A stretch of 49,310 nt of DNA from Clostridia bacterium (GTDB taxonomy: Bacteria; Bacillota; Clostridia; UBA1212; UBA1255): contig JAEFAM010000010.1 of the NCBI GenBank assembly GCA_016287565.1, positions 1-49,310 on the forward strand, in the 5' to 3' direction. A program made the position numbers and the translations under genes. Below are positions 1 through 8,783 of the stretch, one piece after another. The notes beneath the pieces were generated by a model that was not told where the DNA came from, ran no database searches, and saw only the letters and a list, made by a program, of their open reading frames with translations. Position 1 is the stretch's first letter. The number at the start of each line of letters is the position of its first letter.

Positions 1-114
1 CGCCAGAACTTCCGCCGCGGCGTCCCTGCAGCGCCCGAAATATTTTTCCTCCAGCGCCCGGAGCCCCTGCTCGTCTCCTGCATTTATAAGTTGTAAAACT
101 TCAAAGTCGTTCAA
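1..114 (-). CDS. Partial sigma-70 region-2-like protein (5' end only)
   Basis: Only the first 38 codons lie in the window. The frame opens with TTG at 114-112, directly after an in-frame TAA, so no earlier start is possible. GTGAGG lies just upstream, inside the end of the preceding gene, whose stop is 10 bases before the TTG; translational coupling is likely. The N-terminus (LNDFEVLQLINAGDEQGLRA, then LEEKYFGRC) aligns almost residue for residue with the start of the neighbouring 903-residue protein, including the TTG start and the LEKEYF-type helix. It is therefore a tandem paralogue. Whether it also has a membrane segment and an outer domain cannot be seen. The sigma-like reading is inferred from the neighbour. 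Confidence 0.7.
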   Translation of the reverse strand, partial: MNDFEVLQLINAGDEQGLRALEEKYFGRCRDAAAEVLA

Positions 115-124
115 AACTTATGCC

Positions 125-2836
125 TCACTCTCCGCCCGCAGGCTCAAGCAACAGCGAATCCGCCGAAAGATCTACGTAGAGCCGCTCGAAAGGCTCCTCG
201 ATATTGTCGTATCCTGCTACTATGGCCGTAAGGTAGCTGCCAACCGCTTTCGTGAAATCATCCAGCCCGGAGTCGCCGAAATGAGCGTTGTCCATACCAA
301 GCCATTCTATCAGCGCCCTGTATTGTTGGTAAAGCGTTTCAAAGGTCATATCCGCCATCCCGACGAAAAACGCGCGGTAGAGGGACAACGTGGCGATCCC
401 TTCGTCCGAATCCAGCCGGCCGTAATATCTGACCTGGACCGTAAACGAGATCGATGAACCGGGAGACGCAGGCCCGGGCATGGGAACGGTCAACGTTTCG
501 AAGGTGTACAGATAGCATGACAGGTCCTCGAAGATCACCATCATATAAGGAGTCCTGGCGGCGTTTTCATTGAACTGGTCGTAATTGACGGAGGGCAGCG
601 GGCTCGGTTGTCCGGACCGGGGGTATGGGTCGCCTTCGTAAAACAGCACCCAGCCCGTCGCTGCGCTGCCTGCCTTGCCGTCTTTAAACACCAGCCGCCA
701 GTCTCCTTCGTCGTATTCCGCGTCGACTATAGCTATGGGTTTGGAGTTGACGTCGTCGAAGACACACCGGCAGACGCCGTCGGCGGCGCGGTTCCAGGTC
801 AGTCTCACGCTGGGATGGATCCTGTCGAATGAAAATACGCTGCCTTCCATCTGCTCTATGATACCGCCTGGATCGCACATGAGCCGCGTGTATTCCTGAG
901 GATCGGCAGTATACGTCAGATCCGGCCACGATCCCACCCTTACGGTACGGGGAACGATCTCTTCTCTAAAAACGACGTTGCCGTCGCGGTATATCTCTCT
1001 TTCGAGCACGTTATATTCTCCGTCGATCACGTAACGGCGGCCCTCCGAATTCCGGGAGGAATTCTGGGAGTACATTTTTAAATAACTTATCTCCAGGAGT
1101 TCCGTGACGCCTCCTCCGAAATTCCGGTTCTTTCCGGAAAGCGTTATAGAGACTGCGGGGCGTTTCGTGCCGGAAGCCGGAGAGTCCCCAAGTTCGAAAG
1201 AAGTCACGACGCCGTCGGTGACCGTCATCGCCGCCGAGGTATGCCGCTCGGGATATATTGCGTGCTGTGCCCGGAACCAGACATGTATGGAAACAGTCGT
1301 GACCTGCCTGGTCTCGCCGGAATATGAGGACGAAAGATAGTCATGATATTTCCAGTCCGAGGCGATCGAGTAAACGTAAGTGTTCTGAAAACCTTCGGAG
1401 TCGGTCACTCTGTCTACCCGGAGCGTTCTGTCGTGCGCTCCCGTGCCCGTCTTTCTAAGTTCTACGGTGGCAATGCCGTATGGCAGCTCTACGTCGTAAG
1501 TGGCTCTTTCGCTGCTGCCGCCGTTCTCGCCGGTCTCGGGCGCCAGAGCTTCCTTTATTCTCTTGTTGAACGCCATTGCCGTCGACCGGGAGGCCGTTGT
1601 CAACAGGTATTCGCCAAGGAGATCAGAAAGCCCCGGATTGAGTTCCAGCAGTTCGTCCGCGGATCTGAAGGGGATCAGCACGGTACGTTCGACGCTGCAG
1701 GCCAACAGAGAATTATTACCATAGGTGCCTGTCCCATCGTCCCGCCAGAGGCATGTGCCGAAATGACCGATCCTGACCGTCGTCATATACGCCGTGTTGT
1801 AATAATTCGGTTTTACCCAGTCCAGGCTGACCTGTACTTCCACTTCGTTCTCGAAATAGAAACGGCCGTCTTCGGTTATGCTGAGCTTCGTCCCGCAGGG
1901 CTGGAACGTTCCCTCGTAAAACGCGGTGCCCACCGTGTTCAGCAGGTTTTGGAGGGTCTTAAGATCTTCTTTTGCCGAATAATCTATTTCATCCGCTCCG
2001 GCGAACTCCGCGTGCCTGAGCATATTGTGCTGGCTTGCGTCCGTTTTGAGCGCTTCCGGGATCCCGGACAATTCCGCCTTTATCTGTTCCACGTCGTATC
2101 CGGTCGCGTCGGCGCCGAGCCAGACTTCGATCTCTTTCTGCAGCTCCCGATATTCCTCATCCGGGTCAACTTCTTCTATTTCGACTTTTGTTTCTTCGTG
2201 ATGCGTGTGTTCTTCTGCCGGATCGTTTCCCGTCCCGGATTTTATTATATTCAGCATGGCGGCAACGGCTGTGACTGCCAGCAGAAGGACGATCGCGGCG
2301 GAAGCGATCAATATGACCTTCCGGCGCTTTTTCTTATTTGCCGTGTTTTTGCCGCCGTCTGAGTTGTTCGCTTCGCCGGTGTTATTCTCATTGCCGGAGT
2401 TATTCTCGCTGTCGATGTTCTCCTCGCCGCCGGCGTTTTCGAGACCGGCCTGGCGGACGCCGCCGCTCCCGTCCCCGAGGTCCATCGGGGCGCCGATGCC
2501 TGAAAGCTCGTCCCGGCAGGCTTCTCCTGACAAGGCCTCGGTGCGTTTCGCCAGGGCGATATTGCGAGCGGACCTCTCCAAGTAATCCCTCAGCGGAAGA
2601 AAGCCCTCCGGCGAAGCGATGTTGTCCCGGTTGTTCCAGAGCTTGATAAAAGCGTCGAAAACGCATTGACGGCCTGCGGCCCGAAGCGACTCCTCGCTGT
2701 CGAAACCGGAGGAGTCTTGACCGCGCAGGACCTCAAGGGCAGCGTCGAAACAGCTGTCGAAATATTCCTTCTCCAGTTCTCTGAGCCCCCGTTCCTCTCC
2801 CGAAACGATAAGGTCTAACATCGCCCTGTCGTCCAA
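125..2836 (-). CDS. Membrane protein with sigma-70 region-2-like N-terminus and large outer domain
   Basis: The best start is TTG at 2836, preceded by AGGGAGG at about 8 bases; this matches the start of the tandem paralogue and gives 903 residues. A longer frame reaches 3028 but has no comparable ribosome site. Residues about 1-100 look like sigma-70/ECF region 2: acidic helices, CVFDAFIKLWNNRD, then LRDYLERSARNIALAKR, which fits the family pattern of a helix ending in ARN.A. No region 4 (the -35 reader) is visible. A Gly/Asn/Glu-rich linker follows (about 105-167), then KKKRRK (168-173), one transmembrane helix (about 174-198) and some 700 residues predicted outside the cell, with no family I recognise. 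The positive-inside rule puts the sigma-like part in the cytoplasm. It may be a membrane-tethered sensor-regulator; function is inferred only. Confidence 0.65.
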   Translation of the reverse strand: MDDRAMLDLIVSGEERGLRELEKEYFDSCFDAALEVLRGQDSSGFDSEESLRAAGRQCVFDAFIKLWNNRDNIASPEGFLPLRDYLERSARNIALAKRTEALSGEACRDELSGIGAPMDLGDGSGGVRQAGLENAGGEENIDSENNSGNENNTGEANNSDGGKNTANKKKRRKVILIASAAIVLLLAVTAVAAMLNIIKSGTGNDPAEEHTHHEETKVEIEEVDPDEEYRELQKEIEVWLGADATGYDVEQIKAELSGIPEALKTDASQHNMLRHAEFAGADEIDYSAKEDLKTLQNLLNTVGTAFYEGTFQPCGTKLSITEDGRFYFENEVEVQVSLDWVKPNYYNTAYMTTVRIGHFGTCLWRDDGTGTYGNNSLLACSVERTVLIPFRSADELLELNPGLSDLLGEYLLTTASRSTAMAFNKRIKEALAPETGENGGSSERATYDVELPYGIATVELRKTGTGAHDRTLRVDRVTDSEGFQNTYVYSIASDWKYHDYLSSSYSGETRQVTTVSIHVWFRAQHAIYPERHTSAAMTVTDGVVTSFELGDSPASGTKRPAVSITLSGKNRNFGGGVTELLEISYLKMYSQNSSRNSEGRRYVIDGEYNVLEREIYRDGNVVFREEIVPRTVRVGSWPDLTYTADPQEYTRLMCDPGGIIEQMEGSVFSFDRIHPSVRLTWNRAADGVCRCVFDDVNSKPIAIVDAEYDEGDWRLVFKDGKAGSAATGWVLFYEGDPYPRSGQPSPLPSVNYDQFNENAARTPYMMVIFEDLSCYLYTFETLTVPMPGPASPGSSISFTVQVRYYGRLDSDEGIATLSLYRAFFVGMADMTFETLYQQYRALIEWLGMDNAHFGDSGLDDFTKAVGSYLTAIVAGYDNIEEPFERLYVDLSADSLLLEPAGGE

Positions 2837-3004: not shown

Positions 3005-3727
3005 ATGACCTTCATCGACTGCTTGCAATCATTTGATATTTCAGTGCTCGACCGGCTCCAGAGCGCCTTCCGCGGCTCCTTCGCGGACGGGTTCTGGAAA
3101 TTCATATCCTTCTTCGGAGACGGCGGCATCTTTCTGCTTGTCCTCGGGGCGATACTGCTCTTTTTTAAGAAGACCCGCAAGGGCGGCCTGGCAATGCTCA
3201 TCGCCATCACCATCGGCTTCATCGTGGGCAATCTGATAATCAAGAATGCCGTTGCCCGTGAGCGCCCCTACGACGTGATCCGCCTCATGGCGTCCCATCT
3301 TGCCGTGGATAAACTGACTGACAAGTCCTTCCCTTCCGGCCACACTATGGCTTCGCTGGGCGGCGCTCTGGCCCTGTTTTACGTGAACCGCAGGCAGGGG
3401 CTTCCTCTGGTCCTCCTTTCCGTACTTATTATGATCTCAAGGCTCCACCTCTACGTCCATTATCCCAGCGACATTATAGGCGGAGCCGTCATCGCGCTGT
3501 GCACCTCCTTTATAGGATTTATTGCAGCCGAACATATAATGGCCCGGATAGAGCTATGGCTGGACAGCAAGCTGGCAACGCTGAAGGCGCGGCTCTTCCG
3601 AAAGGCCGCCGGACAGCGCCGTGGCGGGACTGACTCTGCCGGTTCCGGCGAGGTCCCTGAGGCAGGAACAGCTTCTAACGCATCCGAAAACAGCTTCTCT
3701 GACGGCAGCGGAGGTGACGCGAATTGA
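3005..3727 (+). CDS. PAP2-family membrane phosphatase
   Basis: A 240-residue integral membrane phosphatase, probably acting on undecaprenyl pyrophosphate or a lipid phosphate at the outer face of the membrane. All three PAP2 motifs are present: K80 with RERP shortly after (KNAVARERP), PSGH at 110-113, and SRLHLYVHYPSD starting at S145 with H152 and D156. Several hydrophobic segments surround them. The C-terminal ~45 residues are a soluble Gly/Ser/Asp/Asn-rich tail that the fold does not need. The end overlaps the next gene (TTG start at 3724 across the TGA). The exact substrate (cell-wall carrier recycling or lipid turnover) cannot be told from sequence. Confidence 0.9.
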   Translation: MTFIDCLQSFDISVLDRLQSAFRGSFADGFWKFISFFGDGGIFLLVLGAILLFFKKTRKGGLAMLIAITIGFIVGNLIIKNAVARERPYDVIRLMASHLAVDKLTDKSFPSGHTMASLGGALALFYVNRRQGLPLVLLSVLIMISRLHLYVHYPSDIIGGAVIALCTSFIGFIAAEHIMARIELWLDSKLATLKARLFRKAAGQRRGGTDSAGSGEVPEAGTASNASENSFSDGSGGDAN

Positions 3728-4233
3728 CCGCGAACTGCCTCCCGCTTTCCGCTGAAAATATGGTAGTCCGCGCTGCATTGCCCCGGGATATCCCAGGCAT
3801 CGCAGCGCTGCTTCTTCAGGTGCTGGCGGTGCACAACGCCATCCGCCCTGACCTGTTTAAGCCCGTAGGGGCCAAATATACCGGCGAAGAGATCGAAAAG
3901 ATCATCGCAGACCCTCTGACCCCCGTGTTCGTATGCGTTGACGGCGTCACCGGCACCGTGCTCGGTCACTGCTTCTGCAAGGTGCTCGACAAGCCTGAGA
4001 CCGGAGCAACGTACCCTGTGAAGTCCATGTTCATCGACGACCTGTGCGTCGAAGAGTCCGTCCGCGGCAAACATATAGGCTCGAAGCTCCTGGACTTTGT
4101 CACTGAGTATGCCCGGGACAACGGCTTTTACAATATCACGCTCCACGCCTGGGAGGGCAATGACCCTGCCCTGGCTTTTTACAGGAACAGCGGCTTTACG
4201 GCGCAGCAATACACGCTGGAGCTCAAACTCTGA
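3724..4233 (+). CDS. GNAT-family N-acetyltransferase
   Basis: A 169-residue acetyltransferase of the GNAT fold, transferring an acetyl group from acetyl-CoA to an unknown amine. The acetyl-CoA pyrophosphate loop is visible as VRGKHIGSKLLDF (R-x-x-x-x-G/A type), preceded by the beta strand FIDDLCVEESV and followed by the C-terminal GNDPALAFYRNSGF typical of the family. The start is TTG at 3724, with GGAGG ending 10 bases upstream; the TTG overlaps the stop of the PAP2 gene, so translation is probably coupled. An ATG at 3760 would remove the first 12 residues but has no ribosome site. Confidence 0.9.
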   Translation: MTANCLPLSAENMVVRAALPRDIPGIAALLLQVLAVHNAIRPDLFKPVGAKYTGEEIEKIIADPLTPVFVCVDGVTGTVLGHCFCKVLDKPETGATYPVKSMFIDDLCVEESVRGKHIGSKLLDFVTEYARDNGFYNITLHAWEGNDPALAFYRNSGFTAQQYTLELKL

Positions 4234-6221: not shown

Positions 6222-8783
6222 ATGAAACGCAAGTACTTCCTTCTTCTGATGCTTCCGGCAATAATGCTGGCAATGTTCATCTTCGCCGACCTGGGTTCTT
6301 CCGTTTTAGCGGCGTACAACTACCAGGCTTACGGCGTCGGAAACCGCTCTCCGATGAGAGTGGGCAACGACGACGGAATGATGGGGCAGCGCGTTAACGT
6401 TAACGGCGAATTCGTCGGTTTCTCTTTCAATATGCCCACCTGGGAGACCAGCGACTCGGAGGCCACGCTTGGAGTCTTCAAGTGGAAAAACAACTTCGAC
6501 GACACCGTGGAGCAGGAGCCCCTCTTCTCCAAGCATTTCGTTCTGCGTGACAACGCCACAAACCAGGTGAAATTCAAGGACGACCCTCTCCCCGCCGGCG
6601 AGTATCTCTTCCTGATCTACGAGTGCTCCGGTTCTGCGGGCTGCTACACCTTCGATACCAACGAAAAATCTCTCGGTTACTGCTACTACGAGGGAGTCGA
6701 GCAGGAATGGGACATGGAACTCACCATCACGCTTACCTCCCGCACCAAGGAGCCGGTAAAAGAATGCGACAGCGCCTCGGATACCTACGTCGCCGTGAAA
6801 CCGCCCAAGGAATTCGAGATCCCGGCAGACAGCCTCATCTACACCCACGAAGTCATGCCTGACACCTGGGTGTTCACCGACGGACTGGGCCGCGTCTCCC
6901 TCACCAACGCGGAGGTGGGCGACCTTAAGGAAGACAAGACCGTGGCCATGTTCTTCTGGACCTGGCACAGCACCAGCCACCTGGGCCAGACGCCTTTCAA
7001 CCTTCAGGAATTCTGCGAAGAACATCCCGAAGCGATCAACGATTACAACAATTCGCTCTGGCCCACGAGCGGCGCCGCATACTTCTGGAACCAGTCCATA
7101 TACGGCTATTACGTCGGCACCGACAAATGGGTCTTGAGGCACCAGGCCGAACTTCTGGCCAACGCGGGCGTTGACGCCATATTCACCGACAACACCAACG
7201 GCACCGAGACATGGCGCGAGTGCTACACGCAGCTCTACGCCGCCTGGGCCCAGGCGATGGAGGACGGCGTCAAGACTCCCAAAGTCTCGTTCATGCTTCC
7301 CTTCAGCGCTTCCGAAGCCGCCAGATCCCAGCTTCAGCTGCTGTTCACCGACATTTACAAGTCCAAGAAATATCAGCAGCTCTGGTTCTACTGGGACGGC
7401 AAGCCTATGCTTATGGCATGGCCCGGCAAGCTCCAGTCAAGCAACCCGATGGATGCCAACATCATGAGTTATTTCACCTACCGCCGCAATATTCCCGGCT
7501 ACATCACCGAGGATTCCGATACGATGTACGGCTCCTGGGGCTGGCTCTCCATGTATCCTCAGGCTTATTATTACGCCAGCGCCGAAGATGCTCAGGCCGG
7601 AAAAGTCGAGCAGGTCACCGTGGGCATCGCCCAGAACCACGACTACACCACCCACAAGCTTTCAGCTATGAACGGCGCGCACAACACCGGCCGCTCCTAT
7701 ACCCTTGACCAGTCTCACCTGGGCGAAGAGAATTCAAAGCTTTACGGATATAACTTCATCGAGCAGTTCGATTACGCGCTTACCCTCGATCCCAAAGTCA
7801 TATTCGTCACCGGCTGGAACGAACTCATCGTGGGACGCTACGACGAGTGGGGCGGCGTCAAGAACGCTTTCCCCGATCAGTTCAACGACGAGAACAGCCG
7901 CGATATCGAACCTTCCAGAGGAGACCTGCAAGACCATTACTACTATCTGCTCGTAAACTACGTGCGCAAATTCAAAGGCGCAAGGCCGATCCCCACACCC
8001 AGCGATCCCGTTGCCATCGACCTGAACGCCTCCCAGGAAGCCTGGAGCGGCGTTGCCCCCTACTACGCTTCCTACATCGGCAACACCGGCGACCGCGACA
8101 CGCTGGGCTACGGAAGGATCGAATACAAGGAATTTTCCGGCCGCAACGATATAATCGGCTCCCAGATCGCCCGGGACAACGACTATTTCTACTTCCGCGT
8201 GGAATGCCGCGACGATATCACCTCCTACACTGATAAACTCTGGATGAACCTTTACATCGATTCCGACCAGCAGAACGCCGGCTGGAACACATTCGATTTC
8301 ATTATCAACAAATCCGCCGCTTCCGCGGACACCGTCGTGCTCGAACGCTTCACCGGCGACGGATACGCCAGCGAGAAGATCGCCGACTGCGAGTACAAAG
8401 TGGACGGCAGGTATATGACGGTCAAGGTCAAAAAGTCCGATATCGGAGTCAGCGGCAAGGATTACACCGTGAACTTCGCCTGGACCGACAACGTCCACGA
8501 CCTTGAAGATACCGGAACGCAGAACGCCGACGGAGAGTGGATCTACACGGATTACAGCGGCGACATACTGGAATTCTACGTGTCCGGCGACGTTGCCCCC
8601 GGCGGCAGATTCAAGTACTCCTACGTCGTCACCAACGATTCCGAACTGGATGAAAGCGGCAAAGTCATACGCAATAAAGACTCCGCCAATCTGCTCCTCA
8701 TCATCATTCCCGTTGCCGTGGCCCTGCTGGCCGTCGCCGCGATGGTAGTCGTAGTGGTCACCGGCAGGAAGAAAAAAGCCTGA
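6222..8783 (+). CDS. Secreted, membrane-anchored glycoside-hydrolase-like protein
   Basis: An 853-residue surface protein. A signal peptide (MKRKYF, hydrophobic run, cut near SVLA30-AYN) starts it. Residues ~35-190 form a beta-sandwich-like domain. Residues ~215-590 look like a GH71/GH99-type TIM barrel: AMFFWTWH, GVDAIFTDN, LWFYWDGKPMLMAWPG, and VTGWNELIVGRYDEWGG, where W-N-E is in the place of the catalytic Glu block of GH99. Residues ~600-790 resemble a CBM9/DOMON-type domain (VECRDDITSYTDKLWMNLYI). A final helix (about 823-847) with tail GRKKKA anchors it; no LPXTG is present. It probably binds and cuts a plant or host glycan at the cell surface. Family assignment is by motif memory only, and the substrate is unknown. 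Confidence 0.7.
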   Translation: MKRKYFLLLMLPAIMLAMFIFADLGSSVLAAYNYQAYGVGNRSPMRVGNDDGMMGQRVNVNGEFVGFSFNMPTWETSDSEATLGVFKWKNNFDDTVEQEPLFSKHFVLRDNATNQVKFKDDPLPAGEYLFLIYECSGSAGCYTFDTNEKSLGYCYYEGVEQEWDMELTITLTSRTKEPVKECDSASDTYVAVKPPKEFEIPADSLIYTHEVMPDTWVFTDGLGRVSLTNAEVGDLKEDKTVAMFFWTWHSTSHLGQTPFNLQEFCEEHPEAINDYNNSLWPTSGAAYFWNQSIYGYYVGTDKWVLRHQAELLANAGVDAIFTDNTNGTETWRECYTQLYAAWAQAMEDGVKTPKVSFMLPFSASEAARSQLQLLFTDIYKSKKYQQLWFYWDGKPMLMAWPGKLQSSNPMDANIMSYFTYRRNIPGYITEDSDTMYGSWGWLSMYPQAYYYASAEDAQAGKVEQVTVGIAQNHDYTTHKLSAMNGAHNTGRSYTLDQSHLGEENSKLYGYNFIEQFDYALTLDPKVIFVTGWNELIVGRYDEWGGVKNAFPDQFNDENSRDIEPSRGDLQDHYYYLLVNYVRKFKGARPIPTPSDPVAIDLNASQEAWSGVAPYYASYIGNTGDRDTLGYGRIEYKEFSGRNDIIGSQIARDNDYFYFRVECRDDITSYTDKLWMNLYIDSDQQNAGWNTFDFIINKSAASADTVVLERFTGDGYASEKIADCEYKVDGRYMTVKVKKSDIGVSGKDYTVNFAWTDNVHDLEDTGTQNADGEWIYTDYSGDILEFYVSGDVAPGGRFKYSYVVTNDSELDESGKVIRNKDSANLLLIIIPVAVALLAVAAMVVVVVTGRKKKA

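Follow-up and report, generated by a model that had tools for sequence, protein, structure and literature searches.

What has become of a sigma-factor domain that is tethered to the membrane and carries a large outer domain? A sigma factor directs RNA polymerase to the genes that it reads, and a preliminary description of the window (the whole stretch of DNA analysed here, 49,310 nucleotides) had proposed tandem genes for proteins resembling sigma-70 region 2, one of them a membrane protein that might act as a decoy, an anti-sigma factor or a released regulator. The window is the whole contig C58 of a draft genome (G000, 2.65 Mb) of a Clostridia bacterium. The features on which the following analysis depends are listed below with their coordinates in the window.

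1..114 (-): first 38 codons of the tandem second copy, truncated at the contig end
125..2836 (-): gene for the protein with sigma region 2, membrane helix and ectodomain (903 aa, TTG start; homologues found)
2528..2836 (-): sigma region-2-like domain, residues 1-103 (AlphaFold, Foldseek, VIA and identity to an ECF sigma factor)
2654..2677 (-): altered polymerase/anti-sigma contact patch AGRQCVFD, residues 54-61 (ECF consensus DAEECVND)
2327..2527 (-): low-complexity cytoplasmic linker without region 4, residues 104-170
2318..2335 (-): KKKRRK stop-transfer cluster, residues 168-173
2261..2317 (-): single membrane helix, residues 174-192 (hydropathy)
128..2260 (-): ectodomain, residues 193-903 (no known family; common to 6/7 members)
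3005..3727 (+): PAP2 phosphatase, a conserved neighbour of the locus in G000, G001, G004, G005 and G006
3724..4233 (+): GNAT acetyltransferase, a neighbour also in G001 and G004

The gene for the 903-aa protein begins at the TTG at position 2836, a few bases downstream of GGGAGG; its open frame reaches further upstream, to a TTG at 3028, but the homology to its relatives begins at 2836, not at 3028. A second TTG start at about position 114 (-) opens a frame with the matching N-terminus LNDFEVLQLINAGDEQGLRALEEKYFGRCRDAAAEVLA, which is interrupted by the end of the contig. Over 36 residues the two N-termini share 56% identity, and the coordinates in the preliminary description are right. The hydropathy profile of the 903-aa protein contains one helix only (residues 174-192, mean 2.9), preceded by KKKRRK and with a net charge of +6 on the inner side, so that the proposed layout of a Lys/Arg stop-transfer, one helix and about 700 outer residues (193-903) also holds. 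When the seven fused proteins described below were scanned with a profile made from 75 ECFs of the genus, region 4, which had been reported as absent, was found in none of them (an HTH control was matched). Searches of Pfam, NCBIfam and PDB sequences with the whole 903-aa protein returned nothing usable. A model of the ectodomain from five sequences (pLDDT 39) was too poor for a fold search, and an internal repeat in this part is suggestive by eye (hhalign P 0.05).

For the N-terminal part, an AlphaFold model of residues 1-110, built from an alignment of five members, had a pLDDT of 82.9 and four helices (3-11, 15-38, 48-68 and 82-102). The first 19 rows of a Foldseek search with this model were all sigma region 2, with weak E-values (0.02 to 2), and VIA-align placed sigma factors at all of ranks 1-36, with a Z of 11.3 and an rmsd of 2.4 over 91 residues to region 2 of E. 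coli sigmaE (4lup). In addition, a true ECF encoded in G000, hereafter C137, shares 40% identity with residues 3-99 (E 2e-5). On this evidence the domain has a real sigma region-2 fold. The Pfam model Sigma70_r2 gave no match with the window protein and reached no member above its curated cut-off, two of six members giving hits with a best E of 0.12. A weak PDB profile match to Lon protease (E 0.006) involved the first 40 profile positions only and is outweighed by the fold search.

We aligned the seven fused members with 77 other region-2 hits of the genus, and the mapping of positions to RpoE was checked against E. coli K-12 rpoE and the housekeeping sigma of G000. The tetrad at RpoE positions 45-48 reads AARE, AARE, AARE, VSRE, AGRQ, IARQ and LAAQ in the seven members, with a net charge of 0 or +1 in every case, whereas all 76 intact ECFs of the genus have a DAEE-type tetrad with a net charge of -1 to -3 and an acidic tetrad is present in 34/35 ECFs from other families. 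The lone non-acidic tetrad among the 77 other hits belongs to a degenerate protein (G005:C237), to which we return below. The equivalent of RpoE Gln51 is Phe or Tyr in 7/7 fused members, compared with Asn or Ser in ECFs (Asn in 94%). In published work, both binding to the polymerase clamp and assembly of the holoenzyme are described as requiring the acidic motif, and EcfP, which has no such tetrad, is intrinsically inactive until phosphorylated (PMC8999054, PMC8103513). The fused proteins resemble EcfP-type ECF43 factors in lacking the DAED motif (PMC8999054); however, EcfP is a full sigma factor rescued by phosphorylation, and the fused proteins have Arg or aliphatic residues at these positions, with no Ser/Thr in 6/7. 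In four crystal structures, positions 47 and 51 of RpoE also contact the anti-sigma factor (PMC7406223), and therefore the polymerase/anti-sigma face has been rewritten.

The fused members have thus lost the polymerase-contact residues, and the earlier functional label of a sigma core-binding domain is probably wrong, since the residues that contact the clamp are missing in all seven. Release of the domain as a working sigma subunit seems unlikely from the alignment, because both the acidic tetrad and the Gln51 equivalent are lost in 7/7. Among the roles first offered, that of a decoy is therefore favoured and that of a released sigma disfavoured.

The rewritten domain is nevertheless strongly conserved in part. 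Between the G001 and G004 orthologues, residues 1-58 show one difference (57/58 identical, against about 74% in the ectodomain; p 2e-6), with a dS of 0.44 and a dN/dS of 0.017 in this one pair, whereas the loop plus 2.3-2.4 segment, the linker, the helix and the ectodomain of the same pair have dN/dS values of 0.29-0.58. Four ECF pairs from the same two genomes gave a pooled dN/dS of 0.35 for regions 2.1-2.2 and of 0.11 for regions 2.3-2.4, one of the pairs being an outlier. The balance of constraint in the fused proteins, as read from one orthologous pair, is the opposite of that in ECFs; when all members are taken together, conservation of the 2.3-2.4 helix falls only slightly below that in ECFs. 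Because the contrast comes from one pair and the loss in 2.3-2.4 is modest, we limit the claim to the 2.1/2.2 half, which is under very strong constraint.

The seven fused proteins, which have two types of ectodomain, were found in five genomes, three in G000 and one each in G001, G002, G004 and G006. One of the two other copies in G000 (C97:1-2721) is a whole-length relative of the 903-aa protein (33% identical) and begins inside the gene. It is very probably the remainder of the tandem second copy, because C97 starts inside the same type of gene and because synteny agrees: the genes behind the C97 copy encode an NlpC/P60-like protein and then an amidohydrolase, and in congeners these flanks of C97 and the PAP2 flank of C58 lie together. 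In G006, PAP2, one fused gene, the NlpC/P60-like gene and the amidohydrolase gene stand in a row, and in G002 and G003 PAP2 lies directly beside the amidohydrolase without a fused gene between them, the G002 copy being located elsewhere. PAP2 is inverted in G000 relative to G006, so that the order matches although the orientation does not; C58 breaks within a Gly-rich loop, and its join to C97 is a reconstruction. The tandem arrangement of the preliminary description is thus upheld by the second start at 114-1 (-), with the sequence to its left very probably on C97 by this reconstruction.

The third copy in G000 lies on C72 (L019 6581-8113), encodes 510 aa and matches the 903-aa protein in the N-terminal part, linker and helix only. 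It carries the same module of sigma region 2, linker and helix on a different and shorter outer domain, and therefore the module has been recombined with different sensors.

We found no further fusion in genomes of the order (31), class (391) and phylum (398; Bacillota), which are overlapping samples; the profile used found true ECFs of about 145-250 aa, and more distant fusions may lie beyond its reach. In the genomes sampled, the fused architecture is restricted to one genus of rumen bacteria, with named equivalents among Clostridia MAGs (Mageeibacillus sp. UBA1255 and bins from yak and water-buffalo rumen). Two other long frames with region 2 were rejected. That in G743 is an ordinary ECF plus an extra upstream frame, and that of G299:C63 (L104 2275-3849 (-), 524 aa) is a frameshifted ECF/anti-sigma pair, in which the ECF shifts frame inside region 4 into the downstream anti-sigma gene; this frame may be either a real fusion or an assembly error.

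The region-2 domain descends from ECF sigma factors of the same genus: the fused-domain profile matches 70+ true ECFs of the genus, and the domain tree places the fused proteins beside the C137 ECF of G000 (support 0.82), together with G005:C237. The latter (L188 235-936 (-)) adjoins PAP2, where congeners have the membrane receptor. Region 4 is still present in it (E 4e-17), the tetrad is lost (AACS) and the frame contains no membrane segment; the tail resembles the anti-sigma motif by eye, although not significantly. G005:C237 is a degenerate ECF and, judged by position, looks like an intermediate of the same locus. A full sigma-factor paralogue that lacks a membrane segment, which the preliminary description had regarded as contradicting its proposal, does exist in this degenerate form, but it reads as an earlier stage and not as a refutation. 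An ECF at the PAP2-linked locus would have lost polymerase contact first and region 4 next, and would have acquired a membrane helix together with a large outer domain, broadly like those that the anti-sigma factors of the genus carry. Within a single genus, a subunit of the transcription machinery would then have become a signalling adaptor. As an apparent intermediate survives, loss of contact, loss of region 4 and fusion would be separable as steps.

Most ECFs of the genus are followed by a gene for a single-pass protein with a 23-aa cytoplasmic motif and an outer part of 300-1100 aa, and for this reason fusion with an ECF-adjacent anti-sigma gene is the likely source of the membrane part. 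The motif of these ECF-linked membrane proteins, as observed in the ECF loci L020-L030 of G000 and in the genus, is [IL][SPD]xx[ILM][IV]xxE.., and the one such protein tested had no match in NCBIfam. When the ectodomain was compared with ten anti-sigma proteins, hhalign gave one weak hit, to the partner of C137 (63 columns, P 0.003), and hmmsearch gave nothing significant. The 23-aa motif was not detected in the linkers of the fused proteins with a 23-column profile, which barely separates signal from shuffles.

The docking site of anti-sigma segments on ECFs is regions 2.1/2.2. Because the fused protein presents a polymerase-blind sigma region 2 at the membrane amid many anti-sigma segments that dock on this half, we read it, tentatively and with confidence slightly short of even, as a single-pass receptor whose ECF-derived region 2 would mimic a sigma factor and compete for an anti-sigma factor, giving an anti-anti-sigma action with a putative partner. 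Its outer domain would sense something at the cell surface, and the state of the receptor would decide whether the 2.1/2.2 groove is free for the partner, most likely the short segment that at least one membrane anti-sigma factor exposes to the cytoplasm. The receptor would titrate this inhibitor and so free a true ECF. That the protein senses, that its partner is an anti-sigma factor and in which direction it acts are inferences here. Note that the altered face is the anti-sigma-binding face, and therefore anti-sigma binding may be lost too. That a transmembrane sigma mimic frees an ECF by a partner switch with neither phosphorylation nor proteolysis is possible, although we lean against it. 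If the receptor reading is true, a polymerase-blind region 2 on a receptor would be a further way to wire surface signals to sigma factors.

To our knowledge, PhyR is the main example of sigma mimicry, and the only sigma-membrane fusions on record are working sigma factors. PhyR of Alphaproteobacteria also has a sigma-like domain with degenerate polymerase contacts that serves protein binding, and this domain titrates the anti-sigma factor NepR (PMC8103513). However, PhyR is soluble and combines an ECF-like sigma domain with a receiver domain and a phosphorylation switch, whereas the fused protein has region 2 only, a membrane helix and a large outer domain, and no Pfam match to a receiver domain was found in the 903 aa. 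IutY and the ECF48/52/53 families likewise unite an ECF-derived N-terminus, a membrane helix and an outer domain in one chain; IutY is freed by proteolysis (PMC8999054), and SCO4117 is a related sigma-membrane example (PMC5826349). These are working sigma factors, in contrast to the fused protein, which lacks both region 4 and the acidic tetrad and has no recognisable anti-sigma domain. Because the defining features of each class fail, the fused protein is a member of neither. The ECF-linked anti-sigma factors of the genus have the same single-pass topology, with a low-complexity linker and a large outer domain, but a short anti-sigma-like segment in the cytoplasm where the fused proteins have a sigma-2 fold. 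The suggestion that the device differs from a classic sigma/anti-sigma pair is therefore borne out by a sigma-2 fold without region 4, joined to one helix and a large outer domain. A literature search of open-access papers found no description of a region-2-only membrane protein, and it appears that the parts are known and the combination is new.

Several other readings share the same evidence. The protein may be an adaptor derived from sigma region 2 whose partner is not an anti-sigma factor but another regulator, its own copy or an envelope enzyme, the fold being kept as a platform. Such an adaptor would fit a face that was rewritten at both polymerase and anti-sigma positions yet is frozen, the aromatic side chain found where RpoE has Gln51 could close off a new interface, and PAP2 accompanies the locus in five genomes. 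We consider it unlikely, but still a serious competitor; apart from PAP2, no candidate partner is consistently linked, and the many anti-sigma segments of the genus would be expected to bind this very groove.

It is distinctly improbable that the gene encodes half of a split, membrane-tethered sigma factor, in which proteolysis would free region 2 to join a region-4 protein, as in SigO-RsoA combined with a release like that of IutY/ECF52. RsoA of Bacillus subtilis is also a stand-alone region-2 protein (PMC8103513), but it serves transcription together with SigO and is no membrane receptor, whereas the fused protein has lost its contacts and no partner is supported for it. G000 does encode one M50 site-2-type protease, and downstream of the C72 copy, one of the seven, lies a gene for an XRE-HTH protein that contains a true region 4 (L019 8269-8757 (+)); it is at this copy only that a region-4 protein is encoded beside the fused gene. 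However, the nearest relative of the XRE-HTH protein (64% identical, in G001) is not beside a fused gene, the family is widespread with its own membrane partner where checked, and the acidic tetrad and Gln51 equivalent are lost in 7/7. No specific candidate is thus supported for the partner region-4 protein that the preliminary description had sought. As a separate observation, relatives of the XRE-HTH/region 4 protein occur in all seven genomes of the genus, several per genome, and where checked their genes are often followed by one for a single-pass membrane protein, which looks like a separate regulator/inhibitor system.

Equally improbable in our view is sequestration of the anti-sigma type, in which the domain would bind a true ECF, for example its region 4, at the membrane. 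Regions 2 and 4 are coupled to each other in ECFs (PMC7406223) and the topology is shared with the anti-sigma factors of the genus, but in the loci read the fused gene has no true ECF gene beside it, and the known anti-sigma contacts use a different helical segment. Finally, that the fused genes are relics or artefacts, ECFs frameshift-fused to a downstream anti-sigma gene and kept without function, is scarcely credible despite the accidental frame of this kind in G299:C63, as there are seven copies in five genomes with two ectodomain types and a conserved start and ribosome site, and the constraint on residues 1-58 (dN/dS 0.017) largely refutes it.

The gene for the 903-aa protein is divergent from the PAP2-GNAT pair, and the nearest NCBIfam models of PAP2 are undecaprenyl-diphosphatases, below the cut-off; this neighbour hints at a possible link to envelope stress. 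Further along the window, 6222-8783 (+) encodes an 853-aa secreted protein with a C-terminal membrane helix, and frames of 880-883 aa with similar N-termini lie near PAP2 in G001 and G006.
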